Part shown: positions 37,146-40,131 of the stretch, piece after piece
Layout of the letters: each line of letters begins with the position of its first letter
Numbering within the stretch: position 1 is the first letter of the stretch
Assembly: GCF_025231485.1 (NCBI RefSeq)
Contig: NZ_CP104003.1
Span: forward strand, 3,735,960 to 3,799,959
Length of the DNA: 64,000 nucleotides
Source of the DNA: Salinirubellus salinus
GTDB taxonomy: Archaea; Halobacteriota; Halobacteria; Halobacteriales; Haloarculaceae
Direction: 5' to 3'
Notes under the pieces: generated by a model
What the model was told of the DNA's origin: nothing
What the model saw: the letters and a program-made list of their open reading frames with translations, nothing else
Databases searched by the model: none
Made by a program: the position numbers and the translations under genes

Positions 37146-37814
37146 CTACCCGCTGCCCGCCTCCGAGACCGGCCCGACGAGGAGTGTGTCCTCGACGAGC
37201 GACCCCGTCGCCCGGCGGAGCCGCTCCGAGAGCGCCTGGTGGGAGATGTCGAGTTCGCTGGCGAGTTCCTCCATCGTCGTCTCGCGCGGGATCTCGAAGA
37301 AGCCCCGGCGGGTCGCCAGCACGAGCGCCTCGTACTGGTCCTCGCTCAGCCCGAAGCGGCCCGCCGGCTCGCCCTCCAGCTCGCGGATGGACTCGACGTC
37401 GAACGTCAGGCCGTGGGCCTCGGCGAACTCGTGGGTCCGCGAGAAGTGGTCGCGGTCGGGGTAGAACACCCTGAGCTGCCACCGGTTGCCCTGGCCGTAG
37501 GCGTCGAGGACGGTCGCCTCCGCGTTCGTCAACAGCTGCAACAGGAGGTCGACGTGGTCGACCCAGTTCATCCGGTAGAGCGTCTCGTCCTCGAACTCCG
37601 AGAGGCAGGTCACGTCGTCGACCGTCGGGTCCGCCTCGAACGACCGCTCGACGGCCTCGCGGTCGACGTGGCGCATCCACAGGAGCGGCATCACCGACGA
37701 CTCGCCGCTCCGGATGATGCGCTCACACTCCACCTCGGCGTCGGGGTACGCCCCGAGCGTGCGTGCCAGCGCGAACTCCTCGGCGGGTACCGTCCCCCGC
37801 ACGATGGTAGCCAT
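37146..37814 (-). CDS. Bacterio-opsin-activator-type HTH regulator
   Basis: A 222-residue protein of the haloarchaeal bacterio-opsin-activator (bat) type. An N-terminal regulatory domain is followed by the bat-type HTH: FGLSEDQYEALVLATRRGFFEIPRETTMEELASELDISHQALSERLRRATGSLVEDTLL from about residue 155 to 213. Members control diverse genes; the ligand is unknown. It is transcribed away from the NifU-like gene, with a 259-bp shared upstream region. Confidence 0.87.
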   Translation of the reverse strand: MATIVRGTVPAEEFALARTLGAYPDAEVECERIIRSGESSVMPLLWMRHVDREAVERSFEADPTVDDVTCLSEFEDETLYRMNWVDHVDLLLQLLTNAEATVLDAYGQGNRWQLRVFYPDRDHFSRTHEFAEAHGLTFDVESIRELEGEPAGRFGLSEDQYEALVLATRRGFFEIPRETTMEELASELDISHQALSERLRRATGSLVEDTLLVGPVSEAGSG

Positions 37815-37987: not shown

Positions 37988-38034
37988 TTTAGGCGCTCCA
38001 AACACTCGTGTGTTTGGTTTAGGGGTGCCAAACA
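37988..38034 (+). promoter_or_regulatory. Two operator-like TTTAGG-N4-CCAAAC sites before the NifU-like gene
   Basis: The pattern TTTAGG-N4-CCAAAC occurs at 37988-38003 and again at 38018-38033, exactly 30 bp (about three helical turns) apart. The second copy lies just upstream of a TATA-like TATATGG (38042-38048). Both resemble the palindrome at 38889-38904. Between them is an inverted repeat CCAAACAC/GTGTTTGG. These look like binding sites of an iron-type regulator, which is inferred. Confidence 0.5.
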
Positions 38035-38073
38035 GGACAAGTATATGGTCGTAGCGACCGAAGCGGGAGGTGT

Positions 38074-38400
38074 ATGAGTGCCGAAAGCCTCGAACGACGG
38101 ACCCGGAACTACCTGAGCAGCAGCGTCCCGCAGATTCAGGACCACGGCGGCAACTTCCAGATAGAGGACGTGGACGAGGAGTCCGGCGAGATCACCGTCG
38201 CCATCGGCGGGGCCTGCTCGGGCTGTGGTATCGCGCCGATGACGATGCGGGCCATCGAACGACGGCTCCCCGAGGAGGTCGACGAGGTGACCAGGGTGAC
38301 GGTCCGACGGACGAGTGGGCCGCGCGCGGCCGTGATGCCCGACAAGACCGAAGAGATGGAGACGATGGAGGAGTACCAGGACTACGAGCCGCCGTTCTGA
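38074..38400 (+). CDS. NifU C-terminal domain Fe-S scaffold protein
   Basis: A 108-residue NifU C-terminal-type protein. The scaffold Cys residues are in GGACSGCGIAPMTMR (Cys 48 and 51, C-x-x-C). An extra C-terminal tail of about 20 residues ends DYEPPF. It probably helps assemble or carry Fe-S clusters. A GGAGGTG ribosome-binding sequence lies a few bases before ATG 38074. The two operator-like sites upstream suggest iron-dependent control. Confidence 0.88.
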   Translation: MSAESLERRTRNYLSSSVPQIQDHGGNFQIEDVDEESGEITVAIGGACSGCGIAPMTMRAIERRLPEEVDEVTRVTVRRTSGPRAAVMPDKTEEMETMEEYQDYEPPF

Positions 38401-38419
38401 GCGGGCCAACGAGGCCTCC

Positions 38420-38818
38420 CTAGCCCTCTGCGCCCTCCGACGGTGACACCTCGCCGTCGGGTGGGTCGTATGGAAGTAGCGCCACCAGTCGCTCGGCCAC
38501 CACCGGGCTGAGCACCCCCGCCATCTCCATCGCCTCGCGTTCGTACTCGTCGAGGTCAAGGACGCTCCGGAAGAACCACGAGAGGGTCACGTACGTCTCG
38601 TGGAGCGCCGCGGCGCGCTCGCGGCCCGCCTCGGTGAGTTCGACACCCTGGTACGGCTCGTACTCCACGAGCCCTTCGTCGTCGAACCGGTGGAACACCT
38701 CGACGGCCGTCCCTGGCGTCCGGTCGAGCAACTCGGCGACGACGCCGGGTGAGACCGGCGGGGACTCCCGGTGCTGGGCGACGTAGAGCGCGAGCAGGTA
38801 CTGCGCTCGGTCGGTCAT
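38420..38818 (-). CDS. DtxR/MntR-family metal-dependent regulator
   Basis: A 132-residue protein of the DtxR/MntR family: an N-terminal winged helix (MTDRAQYLLALYVAQH and SPGVVAELLDRTPGTAVEVFHRFDDEGLVEYEPYQGVELTEAG) and a helical dimerisation domain. The segment usually carrying metal ligands (C/E/H in E-A-C-x-x-E-H) reads EREAMEMAGVLS, with Met, Ala and Gly at the expected ligand positions, so metal sensing may be weakened or changed. A TTTAGGC/GCCTAAA palindrome lies 70 bp upstream (38889-38904), suggesting autoregulation. Family members repress iron or manganese uptake genes. Confidence 0.82.
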   Translation of the reverse strand: MTDRAQYLLALYVAQHRESPPVSPGVVAELLDRTPGTAVEVFHRFDDEGLVEYEPYQGVELTEAGRERAAALHETYVTLSWFFRSVLDLDEYEREAMEMAGVLSPVVAERLVALLPYDPPDGEVSPSEGAEG

Positions 38819-38888
38819 CGCCGTGGCGTCCGCCGGCCGGCCCGCCGCCGTCTCCGCCCTCCATCGCGATCACGCATACTCTGTAGTG

Positions 38889-38904
38889 TTTAGGCAAGCC
38901 TAAA
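38889..38904. promoter_or_regulatory. TTTAGGC-AA-GCCTAAA palindrome (DtxR-type operator)
   Basis: Seven-base arms TTTAGGC and GCCTAAA with a 2-bp spacer, at 38889-38904. The site lies between the divergent DtxR-family gene (start 38818) and the aminotransferase gene (start 38989). Its pattern matches the iron-regulator boxes described in haloarchaea. Followed by AAAAAT on the plus strand. Confidence 0.65.
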
Positions 38905-38988
38905 AAATTCCCGGGTCGCCGTCGTCCGTCGCCGCTCGCCGTTCGCCGCGACGCCCACGCTTTTGCCCACCTCGGGACAACGACGCGT

Positions 38989-40131
38989 ATGGTATCGGAC
39001 CGCGCCGACGAGACGACGCCGTTCCTGGCGATGGAGGTGTTCAGGCGGGCCAGCGAACGCGCCGACGCCGTCCACCTCGAGGTGGGCGAACCGGACTTCG
39101 AGCCACCGGGGTACGTCGTCGACGCGGCCGTCGACGCGCTCCGACGTGGTGACACCGGCTACACCGCCGCGGCCGGGAAACTCGGCCTCAGGGAAGCCAT
39201 CGCCGACTACTACGACCGGACCTACGGGGTGGACGTCTCGCCGGAGCGGATCCTGGTGACGCCGGGGTCCTCGCCCGGGCTGTTGCTGGCCTGTCTGGCG
39301 ACGCTCGACCCCGGCGACGAGGCGGTGCTGACCGACCCGCACTACGCGTGCTACCCGAACTTCGTCCGGCAGACCGGCGCCACGGTACGGACGGTCGAAC
39401 TCGACGCGACCGAGGGGTTCGCGCTCCGGCCCGACCGGTTCGCCGCCGCGCTGGAACGCGACCCCGAGGTGCTCCTGCTCAACTCGCCCGCCAACCCCAC
39501 CGGCGCGGTGATGGACGGTGACACGCTCCGCGAGGTCGTGGAGCTCGCCGAGACCAGGGGGACGACCGTCGTCGCCGACGAGATCTACCACGGGCTGGAC
39601 TACGACGTGGAGGCCCGCTCCGTCCTCGAGTTCACCGACGAGGCGTTCGTCACCGACGGCTTCTCGAAGCGCTACGCAATGACCGGCTGGCGGCTCGGCT
39701 GGGTCGTCGTCCCCGAGTCCTACGCCGACGTGGTGAACCGCCTCGTGCAGAATCTGTTCATCTGTGCGCCCTCGTTCGTCCAGGAAGCCGGGCGGGTGGC
39801 GCTCGAACGCGAGGACGACCACCTCGACCGCGTCAGGGAGACCTACCGCGAGCGCCGGGACCTCCTCGTCGACGCCGTCGCCGACTGGGGTCACGGCCTC
39901 GACCTCGGCTACACCCCCGGTGGCGCGTACTACCTCCTCGTGGATGTCTCCGAACTCGGTGACGCGTTCGACGTGGCCGACCGCCTGCTCGACGAGGCGG
40001 GCGTGGCGACGACACCCGGCGTCGACTTCGGCCCCGCGGCCGCGGACTACCTCCGGCTCTCCTACGCGACCTCGATGGACCGGCTCCGCGAGGCCGACCG
40101 CAGAATCTCGGTGTGGCTGGCGGACGTCTGA
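38989..40131 (+). CDS. Class I/II PLP-dependent aminotransferase
   Basis: A 380-residue fold-type I aminotransferase of the aspartate/aromatic class. VHLEVGEPDFEPPGYVV opens the family, TPGSSPGLLLACLATLDPGDEAV binds the cofactor phosphate, LLLNSPANPTGAVM and VVADEIYHGLDYD bind PLP, and TDGFSKRYAMTGWRLGW near residue 222 carries the Schiff-base Lys. The amino-acid substrate is not determined. It starts 171 bp from the DtxR-family gene, divergent, with the iron-type palindrome between them. Confidence 0.9.
   Translation: MVSDRADETTPFLAMEVFRRASERADAVHLEVGEPDFEPPGYVVDAAVDALRRGDTGYTAAAGKLGLREAIADYYDRTYGVDVSPERILVTPGSSPGLLLACLATLDPGDEAVLTDPHYACYPNFVRQTGATVRTVELDATEGFALRPDRFAAALERDPEVLLLNSPANPTGAVMDGDTLREVVELAETRGTTVVADEIYHGLDYDVEARSVLEFTDEAFVTDGFSKRYAMTGWRLGWVVVPESYADVVNRLVQNLFICAPSFVQEAGRVALEREDDHLDRVRETYRERRDLLVDAVADWGHGLDLGYTPGGAYYLLVDVSELGDAFDVADRLLDEAGVATTPGVDFGPAAADYLRLSYATSMDRLREADRRISVWLADV

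Follow-up and report, generated by a model that had tools for sequence, protein, structure and literature searches.

Putative DtxR-type iron boxes precede a NifU-like gene and the gene of a DtxR-fold regulator in the haloarchaeon Salinirubellus salinus

The bacterial DtxR consensus is a palindromic operator of the TTAGG type, and the box described here resembles it. For the haloarchaeon Haloferax, Martinez Pastor et al. reportedly found in 2024 that TroR recognizes a conserved motif and acts as a repressor of Idr; under iron sufficiency, TroR reportedly represses uptake and induces storage. Idr, SirR, and TroR are the DtxR-family regulators that one Haloferax paper names, and there SirR and TroR protein did not change significantly on iron starvation (PMC11349517). 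Haloarchaeal DtxR regulators also come up in passages of two other papers, where no comparable motif is given (PMC11218638, PMC5605881). Our literature search returned no title on the motif, which may already have been published.

We analyzed 64,000 nucleotides of the S. salinus genome, a stretch that we call the window. A pattern search for TTTAGGN4CCWAAM found exact matches at 37988-38003, 38018-38033, and 38889-38904, which is where a preliminary description of this DNA had placed them. At zero mismatches these are the only sites in the 64-kb window, against an expectation of 0.00 (none in 100 dinucleotide shuffles). Two are on the forward strand before a NifU-like gene: the distal box (37988-38003; TTTAGGCGCTCCAAAC), an exact match 86 nt before the ATG, and the proximal box (38018-38033; TTTAGGGGTGCCAAAC), 56 nt before it. 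Their spacing is 30 bp from start to start, as had been described. The proximal box had also been said to abut the TATA-like element; it is close, but 8 nt separate it from the TATAT at 38042-38046 on the forward strand, an element recognized from the sequence and from the AT peak across 23 promoters. The third site (38889-38904; TTTAGGCAAGCCTAAA) lies between a DtxR-family gene and an aminotransferase gene, and what had been called a near-perfect palindrome is a perfect one, TTTAGGC/GCCTAAA around AA. Read on the reverse strand as the box of the regulator gene (TTTAGGCTTGCCTAAA), it follows a weak TATA-like stretch. All three sites look like operators of a haloarchaeal DtxR-type iron regulon.

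The preliminary description had suggested a genome-wide search for the motif. With at most one mismatch, the 4.38-Mb genome contains 19 forward and 18 reverse matches, compared with 3 and 5 when the pattern is written backwards. Across the order, TTTAGGN4CCTAAA was found in 241 of 243 genomes, while the backwards control gave zero in most and never more than four. Judged by its letters and its neighbors, this palindrome, enriched over the control and placed before iron genes, is a haloarchaeal DtxR-type iron box. In S. salinus, boxes precede, among other genes, Peripla_BP_2 binding-protein genes of the siderophore type (two at locus L031, one at L032), a ZIP transporter gene (L030), and an Fe-S_biosyn A-type gene (L029). 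Another is 3 nt before the ATG of a gene that we call sufC-like (L025), a name of our own where Pfam gives ABC_tran. Some sites fit poorly: one is near no obvious iron gene (L026), those at L027 precede a solute-binding protein gene and an RGP-like gene, and one precedes a gene whose sole Pfam match is weak (L028). We also considered a switch between the Suf and NifU systems. Since a box with at most two mismatches was found within 120 nt in only 7 of the 30 sufC promoters compared (30 of the 36 matches had loci), we claim no such general switch.

Exact boxes also occur in pairs, in 99 of the 243 genomes and never in the backwards control. Among the places listed, most pairs are spaced by 34-37 bp and have a gap that contains an AT-rich, TATA-like stretch, and smaller groups are found at 29 and 53. 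The 34-37 bp pairs appear to enclose the BRE/TATA of genes for iron uptake, like a double core-promoter lock (for example, L031:2937-2988, L031:5652-5703, and L032:2428-2479). A 29-bp pair is found before the RGP-like gene (L027:3568-3612), and pairs with this spacing and similar gap sequence appear in four other genomes (G133, G069, G093, and G118) among the places listed. The 30-bp pair before the NifU-like gene is unlike the 34-37 bp pairs in that both of its boxes are upstream of the TATA element.

The regulator gene (38420-38818, reverse strand) encodes a 132-aa protein that matches Pfam Fe_dep_repress (PF01325, E = 1.7e-8) and has no FeoA/SH3 domain; its match to the metal/dimerization domain (PF02742) falls just below the cut-off (26.3 bits versus 27). 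In an AlphaFold model (pLDDT 87), its closest solved folds are DtxR, IdeR, and MntR, and by this model it is a DtxR-family protein with a winged-helix DNA-binding domain and a dimerization domain. Orthologues with at least 45% identity, which we call window-type, occur in 73 of 243 genomes, and one further match is a fragment. We analyzed 70 loci from 69 genomes, leaving out four genomes (G068, G103, G122, and G238), the second copy of G154, and the fragment, which is in G213. Twenty-four sampled window-type proteins formed one group (support 98/99) in a tree with long branches that drew a warning from the tool. Ferritin-like genes are neighbors of the regulator at 28 of the 70 loci and NifU-like genes at 12 (13 by tblastn).

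At the positions of the canonical DtxR metal ligands, the window-type proteins have other residues: Y (70/70), S (61/70), and E or D (67/70) at 79, 83, and 98, and M (58/70), A or V (67/70), and G (64/70) at 102, 105, and 106. Alignments to solved structures put these positions at the same places, and the full-length, FeoA-bearing paralogue of the same genome (L033) keeps H, E, H, D, E, and H. By these alignments, all six compared positions are changed and the conserved metal ligands are missing from the clade. Since the ligand positions are changed, Fe(II)- or Mn(II)-dependent binding cannot be assumed, and the E/D and M at two of them could hold a metal in another way. Residue E40 of the recognition helix is present in 68 of 70 window-type proteins and is S in full-length DtxR. 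This is therefore a clade with a DtxR fold, often in an iron-gene neighborhood, but with its canonical metal site lost.

The NifU-like gene (38074-38400, forward strand) encodes a 108-aa protein with a NifU domain (PF01106, E = 9e-15) and the motif CSGCGIAP, whose CSGC supplies the CxxC. A subfamily of such 108-aa proteins with a C-terminal tail occurs in 23 of 243 genomes, in 26 copies. When these copies were aligned, the tail read GPxAAVMPxKTxxMxxMxEYxDYxPPF and was changed in one genome (G204). The distribution of the tailed protein follows that of the regulator: 22 of the 23 genomes also have a window-type regulator, compared with 51 of the 220 others (Fisher p = 4.5e-12), and 13 of 14 genera agree. 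An Fe-S protein subfamily is thereby tied to the regulator clade that has lost the canonical metal site. The genome with a tailed NifU and no window-type regulator is G240 (L175/L126), where the gene has an internal stop and an altered CxxC region, and its box is weakened. In the window, a BAT/HTH_10 regulator gene (37146-37814, reverse strand) diverges from the NifU-like gene and shares an intergenic region with it.

The proximal box is a recurring feature of these nifU promoters. When at most two mismatches are allowed, all but one of the 23 primary promoters have it at -56 to -58 (background, 0.0023 per such stretch), the miss being G204, and 7 of the 22 primary promoters other than that of the window have a box at -85 to -89. 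Second nifU copies in three genomes (G173, G222, and G129) have no box with at most two mismatches and were left out of the 23. The AT peak or TATA element of the 23 promoters is +23 to +28 from the start of the box, the opposite of the layout at the regulator gene. A box upstream of TATA suggests activation or another kind of control. At the ferritin-like genes near window-type regulators, a related pattern, TTTAGGN5CGAAA, is upstream of TATA at 28 of 28 loci when searched with the wider pattern; a narrower search left two loci (L086 and L087) without a box, and several start codons were misplaced. By analogy with these ferritin-like genes and with the storage induction attributed to TroR, we lean toward nifU being induced under iron sufficiency. 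The TTTAGGN5CGAAA variant was not found at the ferritin-like gene of this genome itself, which weakens the ferritin analogy here.

The exact form TTTAGGN4CCAAAC occurs 23 times in 20 of the 243 genomes, 11 of them before a tailed nifU. We considered whether its CCAAAC half-site could serve a heterodimer; since this position is taken by CCTAAA, CCAAAA, or CCTAAT in other nifU promoters, we keep CCAAAC only as a tolerated variant. By eye, an inverted repeat, CCAAACAC-TCGT-GTGTTTGG, lies between the two nifU boxes in the window; it is partial in G187 and absent from most of the others compared.

The regulator gene has its own promoter arrangement. A box with at most one mismatch lies within 300 nt upstream of the regulator at only 32 of the 70 loci and within 330 nt downstream of its stop, before the next gene, at 20; counted from the list, 47 loci have one on either side. 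The AT peak at the regulator genes is at -8 to -3 relative to the box, placing the box between TATA and start. Among the 32 loci with an upstream box, 23 have an ATG 3-4 nt beyond it, an arrangement in which the box would seem to span the start of a leaderless message. The layout at the window regulator is similar, but the TATA-like stretch is weaker there and 11 nt separate the box from the first ATG. A box between TATA and start suggests repression.

That first ATG opens a possible leader ORF of 20 codons (38815-38877, reverse strand), whose TGA overlaps the ATG of the regulator (ATGA). Of 34 leader clusters, we set aside eight in which the box is followed directly by the start of the regulator itself and four that had not been chosen as representatives; among the remaining 22, 18 have an ATG at most 5 nt from the box. 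For nine of these 18, the frame stops precisely at +4 of the regulator, where 3.5 are expected (p = 0.001), in a pattern that we noticed post hoc and with peptides that are not conserved between lineages. A leader ORF that begins after the operator and ends in ATGA at the regulator start in several lineages is suggestive. In Haloferax, four-nucleotide overlaps mark translational coupling (PMC7407949, PMC6728339). At three other loci (L094, L099, and L103), a similar small protein, about 55 aa long and carrying a CETCPG/CESSPG motif, begins 2-8 nt after the box upstream of the regulator, and the one tested had no Pfam match.

Taking the site positions, conservation, co-occurrence, promoter geometry, and ligand loss as observed, we infer the binder, the direction of control, and the signal. 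Our main reading, to which we give a probability of about 0.6, is that the three sites are operators of a DtxR-type iron regulon that would be read by both a 152-aa DtxR encoded elsewhere in the genome (L034) and its window-type paralogue, with the regulator gene repressed and nifU raised or retimed. Since the box at 38889-38904 covers the regulator's start region, a dimer bound there would block transcription, by cross- or self-repression. Since both nifU boxes are upstream of TATA and none is over the start, the same proteins would more likely raise nifU expression or time it differently. One box type, in two positions relative to TATA and with two likely outcomes, would provide a testable rule for haloarchaeal iron control. 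It is highly improbable, in our judgment, that the metal-blind paralogue and the tailed NifU further make up a two-part iron sensor, in which the Fe-S state of NifU, in place of a bound metal ion, determines whether the paralogue competes with the 152-aa DtxR at shared boxes or joins it there, and the leader ORF couples translation to the regulator's own promoter.

Three DtxR-family genes stand out in the genome, followed by weaker HTH matches. The preliminary description had proposed that the regulator at 38420 acts on its own gene, the Fe-S scaffold gene, and possibly the aminotransferase gene. We weighed this as a model in which the regulator, activated by Fe(II) or Mn(II), controls all three by itself. 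Boxes do flank the regulator gene and nifU does co-occur with it, but the box is also present in 168 of the 170 genomes that have no window-type regulator, so this protein is not the sole reader, and its canonical ligands are changed. What survives of that model, which we regard as quite improbable, is that putative operators, two at nifU and one at the regulator's own promoter, recur in other genomes; the choice of this regulator as their reader is not supported in that form. Its third target fares no better. The aminotransferase gene (class I/II; 38989-40131, forward strand; PF00155, E = 9.8e-58) diverges from the regulator gene, and the box at 38889-38904 is the sole exact one between them. 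By eye, however, this box is 85-100 nt upstream of the aminotransferase ATG, and a separate TATA-like stretch intervenes at 38960-38966, about 27 nt before that ATG. Within flanks of 1.5-2.6 kb, the two genes are neighbors at only 1 of 70 loci, that of the window itself. Control of this gene by the box is unlikely, and we leave it out of the regulon as probably independent.

The likelier main reader is the 152-aa DtxR (L034:1763-2221, reverse strand; L262-L281), which is near-universal and shares key residues of the recognition helix: it has matches in 241 of 243 genomes, as does full-length DtxR, and its helix reads SPASANEM, E40 included, in 21 of 21 rows compared (20 genomes). It too lacks four of the six canonical ligands. 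Four cysteines (in YC, in CPDC, and one near the C terminus) are present in 21 of 21 rows compared and possibly form a Cys-based iron or Fe-S site. Among the matches listed, 18 genomes have its gene at 3.7-5.2 kb from the sufC-like gene, whereas in G002, G022, G027, G032, and G039 it is not at that distance. Might it read the boxes alone, the window regulator being a target that binds elsewhere or nowhere? We rate this as possible but would sooner bet against it. The matching breadth of box and 152-aa protein (241 of 243 genomes each, with the window-type in just 73), the lost ligands of the window-type, and the motif binding and Idr repression reported for TroR all fit. Exact boxes, however, average 12.2 per genome with the window-type regulator (n = 73) and 6.7 without (n = 170; p = 1e-13), although each window-type locus itself adds one box or more to the count, and within 23 mixed genera the excess holds in 19, with three disagreeing and one tied. 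This roughly twofold excess is why both proteins may read the boxes; it may also reflect only more iron-uptake loci. The window-type protein moreover keeps the winged-helix fold and E40, and one genome (G239) has a window-type regulator and eight boxes but no match for the 152-aa DtxR. Two others (G233 and G047) have no match for full-length DtxR, yet five and eight boxes; all three absences are weak, as only 12 or 15 first-look candidates were scored there. As for nifU, the boxes might instead repress, a dimer on the proximal box hiding the TFB/TBP site, and we give this somewhat less than even odds. By eye, the upstream member of the 34-37 bp uptake-gene pairs is at a similar distance from TATA; in those pairs, however, another box covers the start, where nifU has none, and the ferritin-like genes of the 28 loci share the upstream-only layout of nifU.

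Returning to the main reading, the locus is like the Idr, SirR, and TroR systems of Haloferax in protein family, in kind of organism, and in having iron genes as targets. Gene order suggests that the window-type regulator may correspond to Idr (HVO_0538) of Haloferax and the 152-aa DtxR probably to TroR. Window-type orthologues are present in several Haloferax species, with a ferritin-like gene nearby at two loci (L092 and L093). Our analysis identified the NifU-like target, the two promoter geometries, and the loss of metal ligands, any of which may already have been published. Like bacterial DtxR, IdeR, and MntR, the regulator has the two-domain fold, which spans residues 1-116 and gives query TM-scores of about 0.6-0.76; unlike them, it has no SH3/FeoA domain, and H79, E83, H98, C102, E105, and H106 of bacterial DtxR are mostly Y, S, E, M, A, and G in the window-type proteins. 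The NifU-like protein, in turn, resembles the C-terminal domain of NifU and the Nfu Fe-S carriers in its CxxC-bearing NifU domain. Other haloarchaeal NifU matches, among those listed, mostly share about 50% identity with it along an aligned stretch of about 75-80 residues, and it differs from other NifU and Nfu proteins in forming a separate 108-aa subfamily, confined to 23 of 243 genomes, with a conserved C-terminal tail.
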